Shown piece after piece: positions 1 to 6,834 of a stretch of 6,914 nucleotides of DNA. The stretch is from Thioalkalivibrio sp. (GTDB lineage: Bacteria; Pseudomonadota; Gammaproteobacteria; Ectothiorhodospirales; Ectothiorhodospiraceae). The first letter of the stretch is position 1. The number at the start of each line of letters is the position of its first letter. The stretch lies in NCBI GenBank assembly GCA_003553165.1, contig PUOZ01000289.1, positions 1-6,914 of the forward strand, written 5' to 3'. The notes below the pieces were generated by a model, which worked only from the letters and a program-made list of their open reading frames with translations, was not told the origin of the DNA and did no database searches. The translations under genes and the position numbers were made by a program.

Positions 1-1066
1 CCACGTCGATCTCGCCCAGTCCGCGGTAGCTGAGTTTCATGGGCGGCACGGTGTAGCCGATCGCCAACACCGTCAGCAGAGCCAGCAAGGTGAGTACAGC
101 AAAGGCGGAACCGGGGGTCAGGGCGAGCAGTGCCGCAGCGGCCGTGACGAAGGCCGCCAGGCTGACGGCAATGCCGGCCTGGACCTCCCGCGGACTTAGC
201 AGGCCTTCGACCAGTACCCGGGAGCCTCCGGTGAACATGCTGAAGAAGCGGTTGCTGCGATCGCTGCGCAAGTCCAGCAGTTCATTGCTCAGGACCGTCG
301 CCACCTCCAGCAGGAACAGGCAGAGGTAGCCTAGCCAGAAGACCGGGTTGCCGAACACGCCGCCCGGCGGCCCGGCTGCGAGTGCCCCGGCCGTGTAGGC
401 CAGCCAGGTCATCGGGTAGAACTGCAGGCGCAGGCCCTTGAGCCAGGCACCGGCCTTATCGCGCCGTCGCTCCCATGGCGTGACCCGGCCATGCTCCAGA
501 CGTCGTCCCTGGCGGCGGGCGTGTTCCAGCCAGCGCCGGCGCTGCTCCGGGCTGGAGGTCCGCACCGGGCCGAAGACCAGCGAGCGCACCGGCCGGATGC
601 CGCAGAAGCCCAGGGTCGCGCGCGCCATTGCCTCGCGACCGGGCTGGCGATAGACCAGGCGGTGAATCAGCGGTGGGGTATCCATGGTCGTGATCAACTG
701 TGCCGAACGCCCGCGCAGCAATCCCTGGTAACCGGTGCCGCCCTCGCAGGTCTGGAACGCGAAGCCTTGGGCAAGCAGCCGGTCCAGGAACCCTTTCAGC
801 AAGGCTGGCATCGTGCCCCACCAGGTCGGATAGACGAACACCAGGTGCTCGGCCCAGACGATCAGTTCCCGGGACTCCCGCAAATCCTCTTCCAGCGGCT
901 GCCGGTTCGGCGATTCCATTCGCACATGGGGGTCGAACTCCAGCGACGAGAGATGCAGCTGTCGGACCTCGGCGCCAGCCTCTCGTGCGCCTGTTGCGAA
1001 AGCCTCGGCCAGTGCTCCGCACAGGCTCTCGACGCGAGGGTGCCCGAGGATGACCAGTACGTTCAT
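1..1066 (-). CDS. NAD(P)H:quinone oxidoreductase-like / UbiA-type prenyltransferase fusion, 3' end cut off by window
   Basis: Reading from the ATG at 1066-1064, this frame stays open for 355 codons to the left edge, so the C-terminus is missing. Residues 1-190 look like a flavodoxin-fold NAD(P)H-dependent oxidoreductase (Flavodoxin_2, as in KefF, MdaB and NQO): N-terminal strand and loop VLVILGHPR (3-11), FVYPTWWGTMPALLKGFLDR (77-96), and a C-terminal FCGI (154-157). That family normally ends near 190-200 residues, but here the chain continues. A basic linker (about 182-205) leads to WLKGLRLQFYP (208-218), typical of the start of MenA/UbiA prenyltransferases, then hydrophobic helices, a first Asp-rich motif NELLDLRSD (261-269), GGSRVLVEGLLSP (280-292) and YTVPPMKLSYRGLGE (338-352). 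The second Asp-rich motif would lie outside the window. By family knowledge, the front domain reduces quinones or similar electrophiles using FMN/FAD, and the back domain transfers a prenyl chain to an aromatic acceptor in the membrane. Coupled quinone prenylation and reduction is inference. The start is supported by a GAGGGG site 5 nt upstream. Confidence 0.88.
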   Translation of the reverse strand, partial: MNVLVILGHPRVESLCGALAEAFATGAREAGAEVRQLHLSSLEFDPHVRMESPNRQPLEEDLRESRELIVWAEHLVFVYPTWWGTMPALLKGFLDRLLAQGFAFQTCEGGTGYQGLLRGRSAQLITTMDTPPLIHRLVYRQPGREAMARATLGFCGIRPVRSLVFGPVRTSSPEQRRRWLEHARRQGRRLEHGRVTPWERRRDKAGAWLKGLRLQFYPMTWLAYTAGALAAGPPGGVFGNPVFWLGYLCLFLLEVATVLSNELLDLRSDRSNRFFSMFTGGSRVLVEGLLSPREVQAGIAVSLAAFVTAAAALLALTPGSAFAVLTLLALLTVLAIGYTVPPMKLSYRGLGEIDV

Positions 1067-1212: not shown

Positions 1213-1257
1213 TCCCTGGTTCGTCGACAACACTCCCTTGACCGTACCCAGGGAGTG
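1213..1257 (+). promoter_or_regulatory. Alternative leader hairpins that mask the Shine-Dalgarno of the large gene
   Basis: Two upstream segments are complementary to the ribosome-binding region. TCCCTGG (1213-1219) pairs perfectly over 7 bp with CCAGGGA (1248-1254). CACTCCCT (1231-1238) pairs perfectly over 8 bp with AGGGAGTG (1250-1257), leaving an 11-nt loop. Both pairings occupy the GGGAG Shine-Dalgarno at 1251-1255, so they exclude each other and either one would hide the site from the ribosome. This would fit tight translational control of a potentially toxic product. The complementarity is seen directly; the regulatory role is inferred, and short G/C-rich repeats can occur by chance. 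Confidence 0.4.
1251..1255 (+). promoter_or_regulatory. Shine-Dalgarno of the large CHAT gene (decides the start)
   Basis: GGGAG ends 8 nt before the ATG at 1264, an ideal spacing. The frame also offers a GTG at 1255, but that codon overlaps the GGGAG itself and has no purine-rich site at a proper distance upstream. The ATG at 1264 is therefore preferred, which removes three residues from the longest possible product. Confidence 0.65.
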
Positions 1258-1263
1258 ACACAG

Positions 1264-4200
1264 ATGGCGCGTAAGACGATTCGGCTGGTGGTTTCGACTG
1301 AGCCCTTGGCGAGTCGCGGTGGGATGGGGCCACGGGTGGACGAGGGCCGGGAGCAGGAGCTGATCAATCAGGCGGCCGATGGCCTGTTCGTCGTTGAGTC
1401 GGTCTCGGCGTATGCGGTCGGAACTGCGCGTGCAGGGGCGGAGGAAATCACCGCAGAGTATCCGGCCGACCAGATCGTCCACGTGGAACTGGCCGACGGG
1501 GGCGAGCTCTGGCTCACGCTGGAACGCCTGCAGGAATTGACGGGGCAGCAGGAGGACACGCTGTTCCTCGGCGCGGAGACGGCGCTGGGGGGGCACGGCG
1601 CGCCTTCGCGCGGGATCGGTCGCTGGATCCGCAGGCTGGTTATCCCGAGGCTGCGCTGGGGCAAGGAGCTGGAAGATGCGACGGCGACTGCGGTCGTGCG
1701 CAAGGCGATCGCGAAGGTGGAGTCGCAGTTGCTGGAGCAGCGCACAGGGGTGTATCGCTGCCGATTCGACCGGGCGCGGACGGAACCCGTGTTCGAGTTG
1801 GTGGATGCGCCGATCCCCGCTTCGGGCAAGCCAGTTCTCGTGTTGCTGCACGGTACCGCCTCGAGCACCGTCGGGAGTTTCAGCGGCCTGTGGACCGATG
1901 CCCACCGGGACACCTGGCTGGAGCGGATCGAGCGGCTGTACGACGGGCGGGTCTACGCCTTGGAGCATCGCACGCTTAGCGAGAGTCCGATCCGCAATGC
2001 CTGCGAGTTGCTGAAATGGTTGCCCTCTGAACAGCCGTTGCACCTGCTGTCGCACTCGCGCGGTGGCCTGGTGGGTGAGCTCGTTTGCCGCGGCCGTGTC
2101 GAAGGGCGCGCTGCGCCGATCACCGAGGCGGAGATGGATCTCTATTTCACCGCGTATCCCGGAGACGACGCCGATACCCGTGAGGCACGCGAGGAGATTG
2201 CCGGAGAACTGAAAGAGTTGAACGCCCTGCTGGCCGGGAAGCGCCCGCGGGTTGAGCGTTTCGTGCGCGTCGGTTGCCCGTCGCGGGGCACCACCCTGGC
2301 GGCGGGGCGGCTGGATGTCTACCTCAACCTGGTGCTTTCCGGCGTCCAGCTCGCCGGCGCCAAGCTCCTGGGGCCGAAGGGCGCTGCATTCGTCGGTGCG
2401 CTGCGCAGCCTGGCCATCGCGGTCGCACGCAAGCGCTTCGATGACGGTCTGCTGCCCGGGATCAAGGCCATGGTCCCGGACGGCGGGCTGGCCCGCTTCA
2501 TCAACGACCCGGGCATTCGTGTCGATGCCGATCTGTCGGTGATCGCGGGAAATTCCAGCGTCGGCGGCGGCCTGCGCCAGACCCTGCTGGTGGCCCTGAC
2601 GAATCTGTATTACTGGCAGGCGAACGACTGGGTGGTCGAGACCGACGCGATGATCGGCGGGCATCCGCGCCGCGTCCCCGGGGTGCATTTCGTCGACGAT
2701 GGCCGGGGGCATCAGCCGGTCAATCACTTCTCCTACTTCGCGAACCGGCGGACTTTCAACGCCATCGTACAGGCGCTGGCAGGCAACCAGCTCAGCCTCC
2801 CGGAGTTCGTCTCGCTGCACGCCGAACCGGTCAAGGCCAAGAGCCGGGGCGAGCGTGGCATGCGTGTCAAGTGCATCACGGTGATGCTGCCCGGCCTGCC
2901 GGGCAGTCACCTGCGTGCGGACGGGGATCGCGTCTGGTTGCATCCGGCGAACATCGCAGTCGGGAGAATGCACCGCCTGGATGTCCGCAAGGCCAACCGG
3001 AAGGTGGTTCCCGACGGCTGGTTCCCCAGCCGCTATGCGGCGCTGGCGGAGTATCTTGAGGAGCGCGGGCACCGGGTCGAGATCTTCGACTACGACTGGC
3101 GGCTGTCCCTGCGGGAGAACGCCCGCCGGCTCGGCGGGACGCTGGGCACGCTGGCCCGTGAGGCCGACGCCGAATCGCTGAAGCTGCGGATCCTTGGGCA
3201 CTCGATGGGCGGTTGGGTGGCCCTGCTCTGGCTGGCCACGGAATCCCAGGGGCTGTGGGATCGGCTATGCCGTGACCGGGACATGCGGCTGGTGATGGCC
3301 GGCACGCCTCTGCAGGGCACGTTTGATTCGGTTCAGCTGCTGGCCGGCCAACACCCGCTCCTGCGCTTGCTGGCAGCGGTGGACTTCAAGCACAGCCGCC
3401 TGGAACTGGTCGAGCAGTTCCGGCACTACCCGGGGCTGCTCGAGACCCTGCCCGGCGCAGCCCTTTCGGGGACGGACTGGAACGCCTTTGACGATCGGCA
3501 CTGGGCCCGTCTCGCCCAGGGGCTCGGAAGGCGCTGGAAACATCCGGACGCCGAGGCCTTGCAGGATGCCTTTGGGGTGCGCAGCCGGGTCGACATCGAT
3601 GAGCCGCCGCTGCACGCAAGCCGCGTGTTGTATCTCGCAGGGCAGGATGGCGCCACGCCGGTTGGCATTCGCGTGGGGGGGAGCCGGCTCAGGTTCGATT
3701 ACACCGCTGAAGGCGATGGCCTCACCCCCTGGGCGAGCACGCCGCCGTGGCTGCTGGATGGGCGCTGCTGGTATCTGCCGCGCGTGAAGCACGGGGATCT
3801 GCTGTGCGCTCCCGCGGCGTTCCCGGCCATCCAGGAGCTGCTGGAATTCGGCAGTACCCGGTTGCTTGCGCAGCGGCCCCCGGCCGCCCGCGGTCTGGGG
3901 GCAGTGCCCGATGTGGAACCGGATACCCCGCTGCTGTTCCCTACCCAGGCGGAGCTCGAGGCCGCCGCGCTGCACGGGACAGCACCGTCGCTCGGGCCGC
4001 GCGAGGAGGTACTCCCGGCCTGCCACGTGCGCATCCGCCATGGCAACATCCACTATGCCGACGTGCCGGTCATGGTGGGCCATTACCAGGGCGAGAGTAT
4101 CACCGGTTCCGAGGCCGCGCTGGACCGTTCGCTGGACGGGCGGTTGAAGGCTCTGCACCGCGCTAACATTTATCCTGGGCCCCTGAACACCGTGGAGATC

Positions 4201-6834
4201 GTGGTGCAGCCAGGGACGCAGCGTAGCGAGGGAGCGGTGGTAGTGGGACTGGGCACGCTCGGGCAGCTCTCGGCGGCGAGCCTGCGTGACACCCTGCGGC
4301 ATGCGCTGATCCGCTTCAGCCTCGACCATGGCGCACGGCTGCGTGAGGGTGGTGAACCCGGGAGCAAGGCCGCAGGCGATCTGGCGCTGGCCTCGCTGGT
4401 GATCGGCTCGGGCGTGGGAGGGCTCGTCCGGGTCGATGCAGTCAAGGCCCTGCTCGAGGCTATCGCCGATGCCAACCGGCAGCTGCGCGAACTGGATGCG
4501 CCTTTGCTGCGGCGCATCGACATCATCGAGCTGTTCGAGGACGCGGCGATCGCGATCGCGCACGCCTGCGAGCGCGTCTGCCGTGAGCTGGGCCAGGCTC
4601 TTACCGTCGATCTGACCGTGCGGTCCATGCCCGGTGGGCTGCAGCGCCCGTTCTTTGACGAGGCCGAACCCTGGTGGCGTCGCATTCAGGTGACAGGGAC
4701 CGAGGACGGGCTGGATTTTGCGCCGCTAACCGACCGAGCCGGCATCGATGTGCGCGCGCACCCGATGCAGACGGCGCTGATCGACCGCTTTCTGGAGGTC
4801 GCGACGGCGAGTACGGCTGCCAATCCGGCGATCGGCTCGAGCCTGTTCGAGCTGCTGATTCCGGTAGCGTTCAAGTCGCAGGTGGAGGCGCAGGGCGGCA
4901 TGGTGCTGCTGGTGGACGATCGCGCGGCGCGTTACCCCTGGGAACTGCTTACGGACCGGCGGAGCCGGGATTCGCGTCCGCTTGCCACGCGCATCGGTAT
5001 GGTCCGGCAGCTCTACGACCGCTCCAGTGAACCGCCCCGGCCGACCGTGCGCAATGGCCGCGCACTGGTGGTGGGCGACACCCAGGCCGGGGAAGGCTTC
5101 CCCCCGTTGCCCGGGGCCGTGGCCGAGGCGTCGCTGGTGTCCGAGCACCTCAATCATGGAGGGTTCGATTCCGGGCAGCCGATGATCCGCCGCCGAAGCA
5201 TCGAGATTGTGATGGCGCTGACCAACGAGGATTACCAGGTCATCCACCTTGCCGGCCACGGCGTGGTCGATCACCCGATCAGGGACGCCGTCACCGGCGC
5301 GGATCGGCCCAGCACTGGAATGCTGCTCGGCGACGGCATCGTGCTGGGTCCGAAAGAGATCCGTGCGCTGCCCTGCGTACCGGAGTTGGTATTCATCAAC
5401 TGCTGCCACCTGGGGGCCAACCGCGAACCGCCGGCTGGTGGGCCGCGTTACACTCTGGCGGCGAATCTGGGTACCGCATTCATCCGGGCCGGCGCCAAGT
5501 GCGTGATCGCGGCCGGCTGGGCGGTGGACGACGCCGCCGCCGCGCGTTTCGCCGCGACCTTCTACGATGCCATGTTGTCGGGTGTGAGTTTTGGCGACGC
5601 GGTGACTGATGCCCGCAGGGCGGTGTTCGACGCCTACGGCGACAGCGACACCTGGGGCGCGTACCAGTGCTACGGCGACTATGCGTTCCGCCTGCGCCAG
5701 GGATCGGCGGCGGCTTCTCCCGTGTCTCGATCCGTGGAGCCCGGTGGGGTGGGGGGCGACACCGGCCCGCTGGTTCCACCCGGACCGACCTTTCACAGCA
5801 CGCGCGAGGTCGAGGTCGCGGCGTCGAACATCCGCAGCGAGGTCTACACGCGCAGGATGGAGCCGGACGGGCTGCAGCCGCGGGATCCCGTGGCCCGATT
5901 GAGACATCTGGAAGCCCTGCTGGAAGAACGGCCCCACCTCAAGACGGGCGCCACCAGCAGTGCCATCGGGGCCGCCTGGCACGAACTCGGCGACTTTGAG
6001 CGGTCGGCCGCATGGACCGAACAGGCGCTGGACTGTGAGGACGGCGGGACAACGGTCAAGGCCCTGGAGAACCGGGTCAACGCATTGGCCCGGCTGGCGG
6101 AGCGGCGCCTCGCGGGCGTCGATGCAGAAGCGGGAGATGACGCCGTTCTTGCCCAGCTGGAAGAAGCCAGCAGGGTCGCCGGGCAGGCGGTTGCGCTGGC
6201 CGATACCCTGATGACCCTGGGCGAGAACACAGAGCGGGCAATGATCCGGGCCAGCGCTTACAAGCACCATGGAATTGTCCACGCTGCGCGGGCGGCGGCG
6301 ACATCCGACCCGGAGGTGACGGCGTCCGCGCGCGAGCAGGCTCGTGATTCACTGCTGACGGCCTACACGATCTACCGCGACTCCGCGAACCGGGCGCTAT
6401 CCGCGACGGGCCGCCTGGCCAGTTATCCGCTGCTGAATGCGGTGGCGCTCTGGATCTATCTCGCCCGCCAGGGCGGGCGGGCCCGAAAGGTTCGGGACGC
6501 GTTGCAGAGCACGGATGCGGTCATGGACGAGCTCGAACGACTCGCGGAGCAGTTCGCGGGCGCGCCGCCGGCCGAGGGCGCCAAACGTTTCTGGGATCGC
6601 ACCGACCGCATCAATCTCGAGGTCCTGCGCTCGCTGGTGTCCCGGCGCCTGCATCGGCCTCCCTCGTCGCCGGAGTGGCGAGACTTTGCGGCGCGCTTCC
6701 GCGAGGAGTTCCAGCGGGCATCCCCGCGCGAGAGCGACTCGGTGACCAAGCAGTTGCGTCTGCTGACGCTGCTTCTGGGCACGGACTCCCCCGAGCTCGA
6801 CGCGCTCGCCCGGCTCTACCAGGAGATTGCATAG
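1264..6834 (+). CDS. Giant multidomain protein: two alpha/beta hydrolases, M17-N-like region, CHAT protease, TPR-like C-terminus
   Basis: 1856 residues ending at TAG. Residues 1-179 are an unrecognised domain without signal peptide. Hydrolase 1 (about 180-510) has LLHGT (194-198), nucleophile elbow SHSRGG with Ser265, and probable Asp455 (NDWVVETD) and His488 (VNHFSYF). Hydrolase 2 (about 533-865) is LCAT-like: PGLPGSHL (543-550), YDWR (610-613), GHSMGG with Ser647, Asp818 (EGDGLTPW) and His843 (VKHGD). Residues about 915-1120 resemble the macro-like N-terminal domain of M17 leucyl aminopeptidases (VVVGLGTL, 992-999). The CHAT domain (about 1140-1480) has YPWELL (1224-1229), LPGAVAEA (1282-1289), catalytic His1332 in LAGHG, Cys1381 in VFINCCHLG, and a terminal WGAYQCYGD. 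A Gly/Pro-rich linker precedes a helical tail with at least one TPR-like unit (about 1564-1593). CHAT domains are caspase-like proteases, and LCAT-like folds act on acyl esters. A cytoplasmic protease-gated lipase, perhaps for anti-phage defence, is inference; substrate and trigger are unknown. Every catalytic motif is intact and in one frame, so the gene appears functional. It seems monocistronic within the window. Confidence 0.93.
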   Translation: MARKTIRLVVSTEPLASRGGMGPRVDEGREQELINQAADGLFVVESVSAYAVGTARAGAEEITAEYPADQIVHVELADGGELWLTLERLQELTGQQEDTLFLGAETALGGHGAPSRGIGRWIRRLVIPRLRWGKELEDATATAVVRKAIAKVESQLLEQRTGVYRCRFDRARTEPVFELVDAPIPASGKPVLVLLHGTASSTVGSFSGLWTDAHRDTWLERIERLYDGRVYALEHRTLSESPIRNACELLKWLPSEQPLHLLSHSRGGLVGELVCRGRVEGRAAPITEAEMDLYFTAYPGDDADTREAREEIAGELKELNALLAGKRPRVERFVRVGCPSRGTTLAAGRLDVYLNLVLSGVQLAGAKLLGPKGAAFVGALRSLAIAVARKRFDDGLLPGIKAMVPDGGLARFINDPGIRVDADLSVIAGNSSVGGGLRQTLLVALTNLYYWQANDWVVETDAMIGGHPRRVPGVHFVDDGRGHQPVNHFSYFANRRTFNAIVQALAGNQLSLPEFVSLHAEPVKAKSRGERGMRVKCITVMLPGLPGSHLRADGDRVWLHPANIAVGRMHRLDVRKANRKVVPDGWFPSRYAALAEYLEERGHRVEIFDYDWRLSLRENARRLGGTLGTLAREADAESLKLRILGHSMGGWVALLWLATESQGLWDRLCRDRDMRLVMAGTPLQGTFDSVQLLAGQHPLLRLLAAVDFKHSRLELVEQFRHYPGLLETLPGAALSGTDWNAFDDRHWARLAQGLGRRWKHPDAEALQDAFGVRSRVDIDEPPLHASRVLYLAGQDGATPVGIRVGGSRLRFDYTAEGDGLTPWASTPPWLLDGRCWYLPRVKHGDLLCAPAAFPAIQELLEFGSTRLLAQRPPAARGLGAVPDVEPDTPLLFPTQAELEAAALHGTAPSLGPREEVLPACHVRIRHGNIHYADVPVMVGHYQGESITGSEAALDRSLDGRLKALHRANIYPGPLNTVEIVVQPGTQRSEGAVVVGLGTLGQLSAASLRDTLRHALIRFSLDHGARLREGGEPGSKAAGDLALASLVIGSGVGGLVRVDAVKALLEAIADANRQLRELDAPLLRRIDIIELFEDAAIAIAHACERVCRELGQALTVDLTVRSMPGGLQRPFFDEAEPWWRRIQVTGTEDGLDFAPLTDRAGIDVRAHPMQTALIDRFLEVATASTAANPAIGSSLFELLIPVAFKSQVEAQGGMVLLVDDRAARYPWELLTDRRSRDSRPLATRIGMVRQLYDRSSEPPRPTVRNGRALVVGDTQAGEGFPPLPGAVAEASLVSEHLNHGGFDSGQPMIRRRSIEIVMALTNEDYQVIHLAGHGVVDHPIRDAVTGADRPSTGMLLGDGIVLGPKEIRALPCVPELVFINCCHLGANREPPAGGPRYTLAANLGTAFIRAGAKCVIAAGWAVDDAAAARFAATFYDAMLSGVSFGDAVTDARRAVFDAYGDSDTWGAYQCYGDYAFRLRQGSAAASPVSRSVEPGGVGGDTGPLVPPGPTFHSTREVEVAASNIRSEVYTRRMEPDGLQPRDPVARLRHLEALLEERPHLKTGATSSAIGAAWHELGDFERSAAWTEQALDCEDGGTTVKALENRVNALARLAERRLAGVDAEAGDDAVLAQLEEASRVAGQAVALADTLMTLGENTERAMIRASAYKHHGIVHAARAAATSDPEVTASAREQARDSLLTAYTIYRDSANRALSATGRLASYPLLNAVALWIYLARQGGRARKVRDALQSTDAVMDELERLAEQFAGAPPAEGAKRFWDRTDRINLEVLRSLVSRRLHRPPSSPEWRDFAARFREEFQRASPRESDSVTKQLRLLTLLLGTDSPELDALARLYQEIA

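Follow-up and report, generated by a model that had tools for sequence, protein, structure and literature searches.

Two lipase-like hydrolases, an M17_N-like module and a TPR-S-like tail fused to a CHAT caspase-like protease in a widespread bacterial protein family: a candidate suicide effector

What a bacterium may do with two lipase-like hydrolases, a caspase-like protease and a helical tail joined in one polypeptide is the question raised by a gene of Thioalkalivibrio sp. that occupies most of a contig of 6914 bases, the whole of which was analysed and is referred to here as the window. The coding sequence (1264..6834, plus strand) begins at an ATG and runs through 1856 codons without a stop, as had been read originally. 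An alternative in-frame GTG lies at 1255, 9 nt 5' of the ATG; the ATG at 1264 is favoured as the start because a directly read Shine-Dalgarno-like AGGGAG (1250..1255, plus strand) stands 8 nt before it. A scan of the window for promoters and terminators found none. In the encoded protein of 1856 amino acids, hydrolase 1 is followed by hydrolase 2, an M17_N-like module, a CHAT protease and, last, a TPR-S-like tail. A hydropathy scan detects neither a signal peptide nor a strong transmembrane segment in it.

Scoring of 7991 candidates yields 1285 relatives of this protein at E<=1e-3, and seven of the 120 listed matches are full length at 80-94% identity, so the frame is regarded as a real gene. 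CHAT and DUF7379 are present in nearly all of the 120 listed relatives, with one (P0014) lacking DUF7379. At least 501 relatives are found by a scan of named genomes, and the relatives span at least six phyla (Proteobacteria, Desulfobacterota, Nitrospirales, Bacteroidota, Acidobacteriota and Chloroflexi, as named in the genome records); the order of two lipases, CHAT and tail thus defines a widespread family and is not unique to the window. The distribution within the genus is patchy, as the full gene occurs in two of 29 other genomes (G010 and G012, at about 60% identity), a third (G018) matches the CHAT part only, and the source assembly, which is 68% complete, holds a single copy. A phage or viral origin was considered and dropped, since neither 50,697 phage records nor a pattern scan of viral contigs gave any match to the family, while only 10 of 72,556 plasmid records contain one. 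The whole protein matches no PADLOC family and no solved structure at E<=1. Azotobacter chroococcum (L064) carries two family copies (1943-7435 and 9587-15211) about 2 kb apart, and a plasmid copy in this species adjoins type I restriction and Fic genes.

The first hydrolase (residues ~186-520; 1819..2823, plus strand) belongs to DUF7379 (PF24096), which scores 94.9 bits at residues 192-274 against a Pfam cut-off of 33 and is mentioned nowhere in the literature searched. The second (residues ~538-870; 2875..3873, plus strand) is of the LCAT or group XV phospholipase A2 type and matches LCAT (PF02450) at residues 592-694 with a marginal 22.2 bits against a Pfam cut-off of 21. The triad of hydrolase 1 is S265 (2056-2058), D455 (2626-2628) and H488 (2725-2727), and that of hydrolase 2 is S647 (3202-3204), D818 (3715-3717) and H843 (3790-3792), all on the plus strand, where the acid and the histidine of each triad are assigned from conservation and order, not from structure. 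S265, D455, H488, D818 and H843 are identical in all 98 aligned proteins, while S647 is kept in 94 (replaced by G in three and A in one). In a second set of 82 sequences, partly overlapping the 98, the same five residues and the two of the CHAT dyad are kept in 82/82 and S647 in 78/82. Built from 65 sequences, a profile of the N-terminal half hits group XV phospholipase A2 (4x90, E 4e-8), LCAT (5txf, E 6e-7) and, more weakly, PlaB phospholipase (E 2e-4), and these matches fall at the profile positions corresponding to hydrolase 2; hydrolase 1 alone matches solved lipases weakly, with the putative lipase 7x2p as the best (E 0.016). Both hydrolases are probably active, judging by their conserved catalytic residues, and the chemistry of hydrolase 1 seems to matter, because its triad is kept without exception in both alignments. 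A gene on a Qingshengfaniella plasmid (L006 11629-14361), annotated as a trypsin-like peptidase, matches hydrolase 2 alone (residues 539-881), the same lipase part being combined, apparently, with another protease.

Between hydrolase 2 and the protease lies a part that had been overlooked in the original domain list, an M17_N-like module with a conserved region behind it (residues 912-1180; 3997..4803, plus strand). Peptidase_M17_N (PF02789) covers residues 937-1014 (4072-4305, plus strand) with 20.5 bits in the protein scan and 24.6 bits in a six-frame search, the cut-off being 23.4. A 35-sequence profile of the region matches the N-terminal part of the cytosol aminopeptidase 3jru (E 1.8e-5), and hhalign aligns it with an M17_N alignment at E 2.6e-6 and a probability of 89, while the Pfam scan of the protein reports no catalytic M17 domain. 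M17_N is classed with the macro domains by fold, and a nucleotide-sensing role of this module is therefore possible. Neither the region (E 0.23) nor M17_N itself (E 0.48) finds a Macro alignment in hhalign, so that this comparison weighs neither for nor against such a role; the Macro and M17_N test sets were cut at a fixed offset, gave stop-free reads at 19 of 30 and 18 of 29 loci, respectively, and include at least one read (L135) that looks to be in the wrong frame.

The CHAT caspase-like protease (residues 1191-1472; 4834..5679, plus strand) is recognised by PF12770 with 95.9 bits against a Pfam cut-off of 24, and its dyad, H1332 (5257-5259) and C1381 (5404-5406), both on the plus strand, is identical in 98/98 aligned proteins, from which the protease is probably active. 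The profile of this region matches solved CHAT chains weakly (8tl0, E 0.0018; 8rot, E 0.22). In the 82 sequences, the stretch that begins with hydrolase 1 and ends with CHAT is conserved without a break; of the internal linkers, the most variable, poorly conserved and rich in gaps, falls at residues ~1480-1515 (5701..5808, plus strand), where it separates the tail from CHAT. It had been proposed that CHAT sets the hydrolases free by cutting its own chain; no positive evidence for it was obtained, and as the variable linker parts CHAT from the tail and not from the hydrolases, this reading, possible but weakly grounded, was dropped.

The helical tail (residues ~1540-1856; 5881..6831, plus strand) contains the conserved residues E1657, R1658, K1667, Y1704, Y1721 and N1725. 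TPR-S (PF20308, cut-off 27.6) does not match the window protein at E<=1, approaches the cut-off in relatives at 57-58% identity (P0013, a Thioalkalivibrio paradoxus protein, 23.0 bits; P0011, 25.2 bits) and exceeds it in P0015 (31.2 bits), P0016 (47.5) and P0021 (46.9). In an alignment that includes two TPR-S proteins, no sequence departs from Y1704, Y1721 and N1725 at these positions (32/32). The family thus resembles TPR-S proteins in the tails of its relatives, and in some neighbours that carry TPR-S too, and differs from them in that the tail of the window copy stays below the PF20308 threshold. On these sequence comparisons the tail is TPR-like and probably akin to TPR-S, a predicted sensor domain. 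In 2020, Burroughs and Aravind reportedly put TPR-S forward as a domain that senses signals derived from NAD. The available part of PMC8195603 cites their paper for TIR-made, ADP-ribose-bearing signals. The original reading is therefore upheld for its parts: each hydrolase has a complete Ser-Asp-His triad, CHAT has its His/Cys dyad, and the C-terminus is helical, TPR-like and of a sensor type.

For the operon partners of the family, 80 loci were kept from the at least 501 relatives, of which one (L032) was dropped as no gene call matched the query, leaving 79; plasmid loci were excluded. Up to four genes per side on the same strand, with gaps of at most 200 bp, were taken as operon neighbours, giving 143 genes called with a home-made script, some of which are probably spurious frames, and 143 control genes were drawn from the 566 that lie in these loci at a distance of five genes or more. 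The scans cover the 25 commonest families of 127 (Pfam) and 30 (PADLOC) for the operon genes, and of 216 (Pfam) and 50 (PADLOC) for the control genes. By Pfam, the operon genes include 16 C14 caspases, 16 TIR_2, 10 M15, 5 TPR-S and 3 patatin genes, together with PG_binding_1 in three genes, one of them without a traced locus. By PADLOC, they include 16 caspases and 11 SAVED_TIR, with four ThsB models on 5, 2, 2 and 1 genes that may overlap, while the control genes include one caspase and no family in more than two genes. TIR, M15 and caspase are absent among the best 25 of the 216 Pfam families in the control, each of those families being found in 2-4 genes. The caspase difference (16/143 versus 1/143) gives a Fisher p of 2e-4; the number 16, which agrees with Pfam, is used instead of 18, because our own caspase model also matched two TIR proteins (L047 and L074). 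Our own models find TIR in 14 of 143 operon genes (12 of 79 operons), compared with 9 of the 973 others, and find M15 in 11 of 143, compared with 0 of 973, both with a bias toward the operon side as they were seeded from operon genes.

Such partners are confined to some members. The caspase is found in 16 of the 79 loci only, and a same-strand partner is missing upstream in 40 and downstream in 41, some of these being contig ends. On a FastTree tree with weak support at 23 of its 79 inner branches, the minimum number of changes, given without a shuffled baseline, is 11 for the caspase-type label (17 loci, one of them clostripain), 10 for TIR (14 loci, with L040 and L067 below the Pfam cut-off), 7 for the wall-gene label (14 loci) and 4 for M15 alone (11 loci). 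In L036 a clostripain (C11) peptidase (8917-9690) stands in place of the C14 caspase. The original 'one-gene system' is at odds with relatives that have operon partners, and an orphan single-gene system was dropped as a reading.

TIR domains are also linked to the family by fusion, since in P0035, P0086 and L013 the chain continues past the TPR-S tail into a TIR domain; in P0067 a pYEATS domain forms the front of the protein. In Thioalkalivibrio, the G010 and G012 copies are followed by genes for an Xre-type antitoxin and a RES toxin, and genes with TIR, nSTAND1, Amidase_2 and TPR-S lie near both, this set being identified in G010 by 92-98% identity to G012. G012 also has DUF4062 and a lipase-like gene below the Pfam cut-off near its copy. 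The Amidase_2 gene beside these copies sits in a divergent group, with a GH19-like part below the Pfam cut-off. G010 also has a TPR-S-patatin fusion (L100 11429-14071), in which, close to the family, a second lipid enzyme is coupled to this sensor domain.

Wall-acting enzymes form a further group of partners, a peptidoglycan-acting gene, mostly M15, being found in 14 of the 79 loci. M15 peptidases lie directly downstream in 11 loci, where their start overlaps the stop of the family gene by 4 nt in nine, and all 11 keep the pattern SxHxxGxACD + WVH, presumably the zinc ligands, while a crude hydropathy scan detects no strongly hydrophobic start in any of them. The remaining wall genes are Amidase_2 in L046, a muramidase with PG_binding_1 in L020 and PG_binding_1 alone in L008, and on a Rhizobium plasmid, outside the 79 loci, a shorter relative extending from the M17_N-like part to CHAT has behind it a gene that combines GH108 with PG_binding_3. 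Beside or near members in different lineages, wall-enzyme domains of four unrelated kinds occur (M15, Amidase_2, muramidase and GH108). The order C14 caspase, family gene, M15 peptidase recurs in six loci (L029, L031, L033, L039, L042 and L048); L039 has a TPR-S protein ahead of the caspase, and L033 a homologue of it. In five of the six (not L039) the gene after M15 encodes a protein that is 517-538 residues long and hydrophobic at its start (L048 15983-17536; homologues in L029, L031, L033, L042 and L076), the L048 copy of which has no Pfam match. Rhodoferax and Dechloromonas, for example, carry a complete set of caspase, family gene, M15 and membrane protein.

As some relatives adjoin caspases, TIR proteins and wall-cutting enzymes, the protein may well be a self-destruct switch against viruses. 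Our preferred reading, held tentatively and at somewhat less than an even chance, is a caspase-gated suicide effector for which a TIR-made, NAD-derived signal is the predicted infection switch and which would attack membrane lipids; the domain order, the intact catalytic residues, the broad conservation and the partners that relatives have in their operons are observed, while we infer the signal, the cleavage and the lipid target. On infection, the signal would come from a partner of TIR or TIR-like type, which some relatives carry in the same chain behind the tail and others encode next door, and it would be received by the TPR-S tail, perhaps together with the M17_N-like module. CHAT would then be switched on to cut proteins, perhaps including the adjoining caspase of 16/79 relatives as in an initiator-executioner pair, and both hydrolases would deacylate membrane phospholipids. 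An adjoining wall enzyme without a signal peptide could finally pass the damaged membrane and reach the wall, whereupon the cell would lyse. For the last step there is a precedent, as peptidoglycan attack has been predicted for effectors of another conflict system, according to the accessible portion of Kaur et al. (PMC7159879). Against the preferred reading count the lack of a PADLOC match, the missing TPR-S match of the window copy, the loss of S647 in 4/98 proteins, the loci without partners, and the lack of phage and viral matches together with the few plasmid ones.

The killing may instead lie with the protease, where a TIR-switched CHAT would degrade many cell proteins and the hydrolases would serve as sensors, scaffolds or accessory deacylases. 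This is how the part of PMC12847820 at hand describes type IV Thoeris, which links TIR and N7-cADPR to a caspase-like protease and its degradation of cellular proteins; by analogy we infer that a similar signalling logic, shared by the preferred reading, may operate in the present family. The TIR fused or adjacent in some relatives and the loss of S647 in 4/98 fit a protease that kills by itself, but the triad of hydrolase 1, invariant in both alignments, suggests that its chemistry matters, and the reading is judged unlikely.

The recurrent operon invites another explanation, in which CHAT mainly cleaves and activates neighbouring pro-enzymes such as the caspase, the M15 peptidase or the patatin. 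The caspase lies directly upstream in 15 loci, the M15 genes are coupled downstream as described, and pro-nucleases activated by a partner protease are described for Hachiman, AVAST and canu systems in the available text of PMC12799240. However, many loci have no such partner, and the conserved fused hydrolases would stand idle, which makes this explanation rather unlikely as the main role.

The surroundings of the window copy itself bear on whether the family has an immune role at all. The contig stops 80 nt past the stop codon, and no defence gene is present in the upstream flank or in these 80 nt. The upstream neighbour, encoded on the opposite strand, looks like a NAD(P)H oxidoreductase with a prenyltransferase of MenA/UbiA type attached, an unusual fusion (2-1066, minus strand, 355 codons, clipped by the contig edge) with oxidoreductase models at residues 1-105 and prenyltransferase models at 203-355, all below curated cut-offs. 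With a metabolic gene upstream and the contig end downstream, the window copy joins the pattern by its family and not by its own context. A housekeeping enzyme of envelope or lipid remodelling, with a regulatory protease and no immune role, would suit this neighbour, the CoA-synthetase-like gene upstream of the nearest named relative (L007), the biotin-carboxylase-type genes that L078 and L079 adjoin and the genes beside L030 and L049 judged by eye to be ribosomal. It would also suit the PADLOC counts, as the control genes match 50 different families and the operon genes 30, for which reason enrichment is claimed for particular partners and not for defence islands in general. Of the defence association that was to be checked among homologues, the caspase and TIR partners of some members are supported, while general island enrichment is not. 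The patchy distribution (2/29) and the enriched caspase and TIR partners nevertheless speak against a housekeeping enzyme, which is considered quite improbable. Least probable, and very unlikely, is that the adjoining wall enzymes are PGRP-like sensors of peptidoglycan fragments that trigger the protein instead of acting downstream of it, since, although Amidase_2 domains share the PGRP fold, occur in L046 and near the Thioalkalivibrio copies, and the wall enzymes have no hydrophobic start, the intact M15 pattern (11/11) and the occurrence of muramidase and GH108 genes fit catalysis.

The preferred reading, a lipid-attacking suicide effector, can be set against known systems. SAVED-CHAT acts with its caspase in a cascade. 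Some relatives resemble type IV Thoeris in having TIR and a caspase-superfamily protease in one operon or polypeptide, with a TIR gene in 12/79 of the relatives' operons and none in the window, and the family differs from it in the two lipase-like hydrolases and the M17_N-like module fused to the protease. VMAP caspase domains always have an alpha/beta-hydrolase gene adjacent, according to the portion of Kaur et al. (2020, PMC7159879) available, so that VMAP and EACC1-caspase systems share the pairing of a caspase-type domain with a hydrolase, whereas the hydrolases and the protease are fused here; MoxR, vWA and VMAP are absent among the best 25 of the 127 operon Pfam families. The family is also like TPR-CHAT/Csx29 of Craspase and SAVED-CHAT in joining a CHAT protease to a TPR or other sensor, and unlike them in the fused hydrolases; no Cas7-11 partner is seen in the window or among the best 25 of the 30 operon PADLOC families, and the protein is not placed in Craspase. 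As in canu and the trypsin-gated nucleases, a protease would be wired to a lytic enzyme in defence, although there, going by the accessible text of PMC12799240, the lytic enzyme is a separate nuclease of metallo-beta-lactamase type, while it is lipase-like and fused in the present family. The original statement that no characterised system has this domain order holds in that no published description of the architecture was found among the matches listed in the literature searched, which largely leaves out subscription journals; the order itself proved to be that of a widespread family.

Bacterial caspase-family immunity acts via protein cleavage, pores and nucleases. If the preferred reading is true, destruction of lipid and wall would extend these modes. 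A further proposal, itself unlikely, is that the family forms a host-made, caspase-controlled lysis machine, in which receiver, protease and two lipases would be joined and endolysin-like wall enzymes, supplied by the operon in several lineages and lacking signal peptides, would cross the breached membrane; if this is true, the infected cell would burst early with tools like the holin and endolysin of phages. The named catalytic residues allow a direct test of the family, which would bring together in a single polypeptide the caspase and the hydrolase that adjacent genes encode in what is available of Kaur et al. (PMC7159879).
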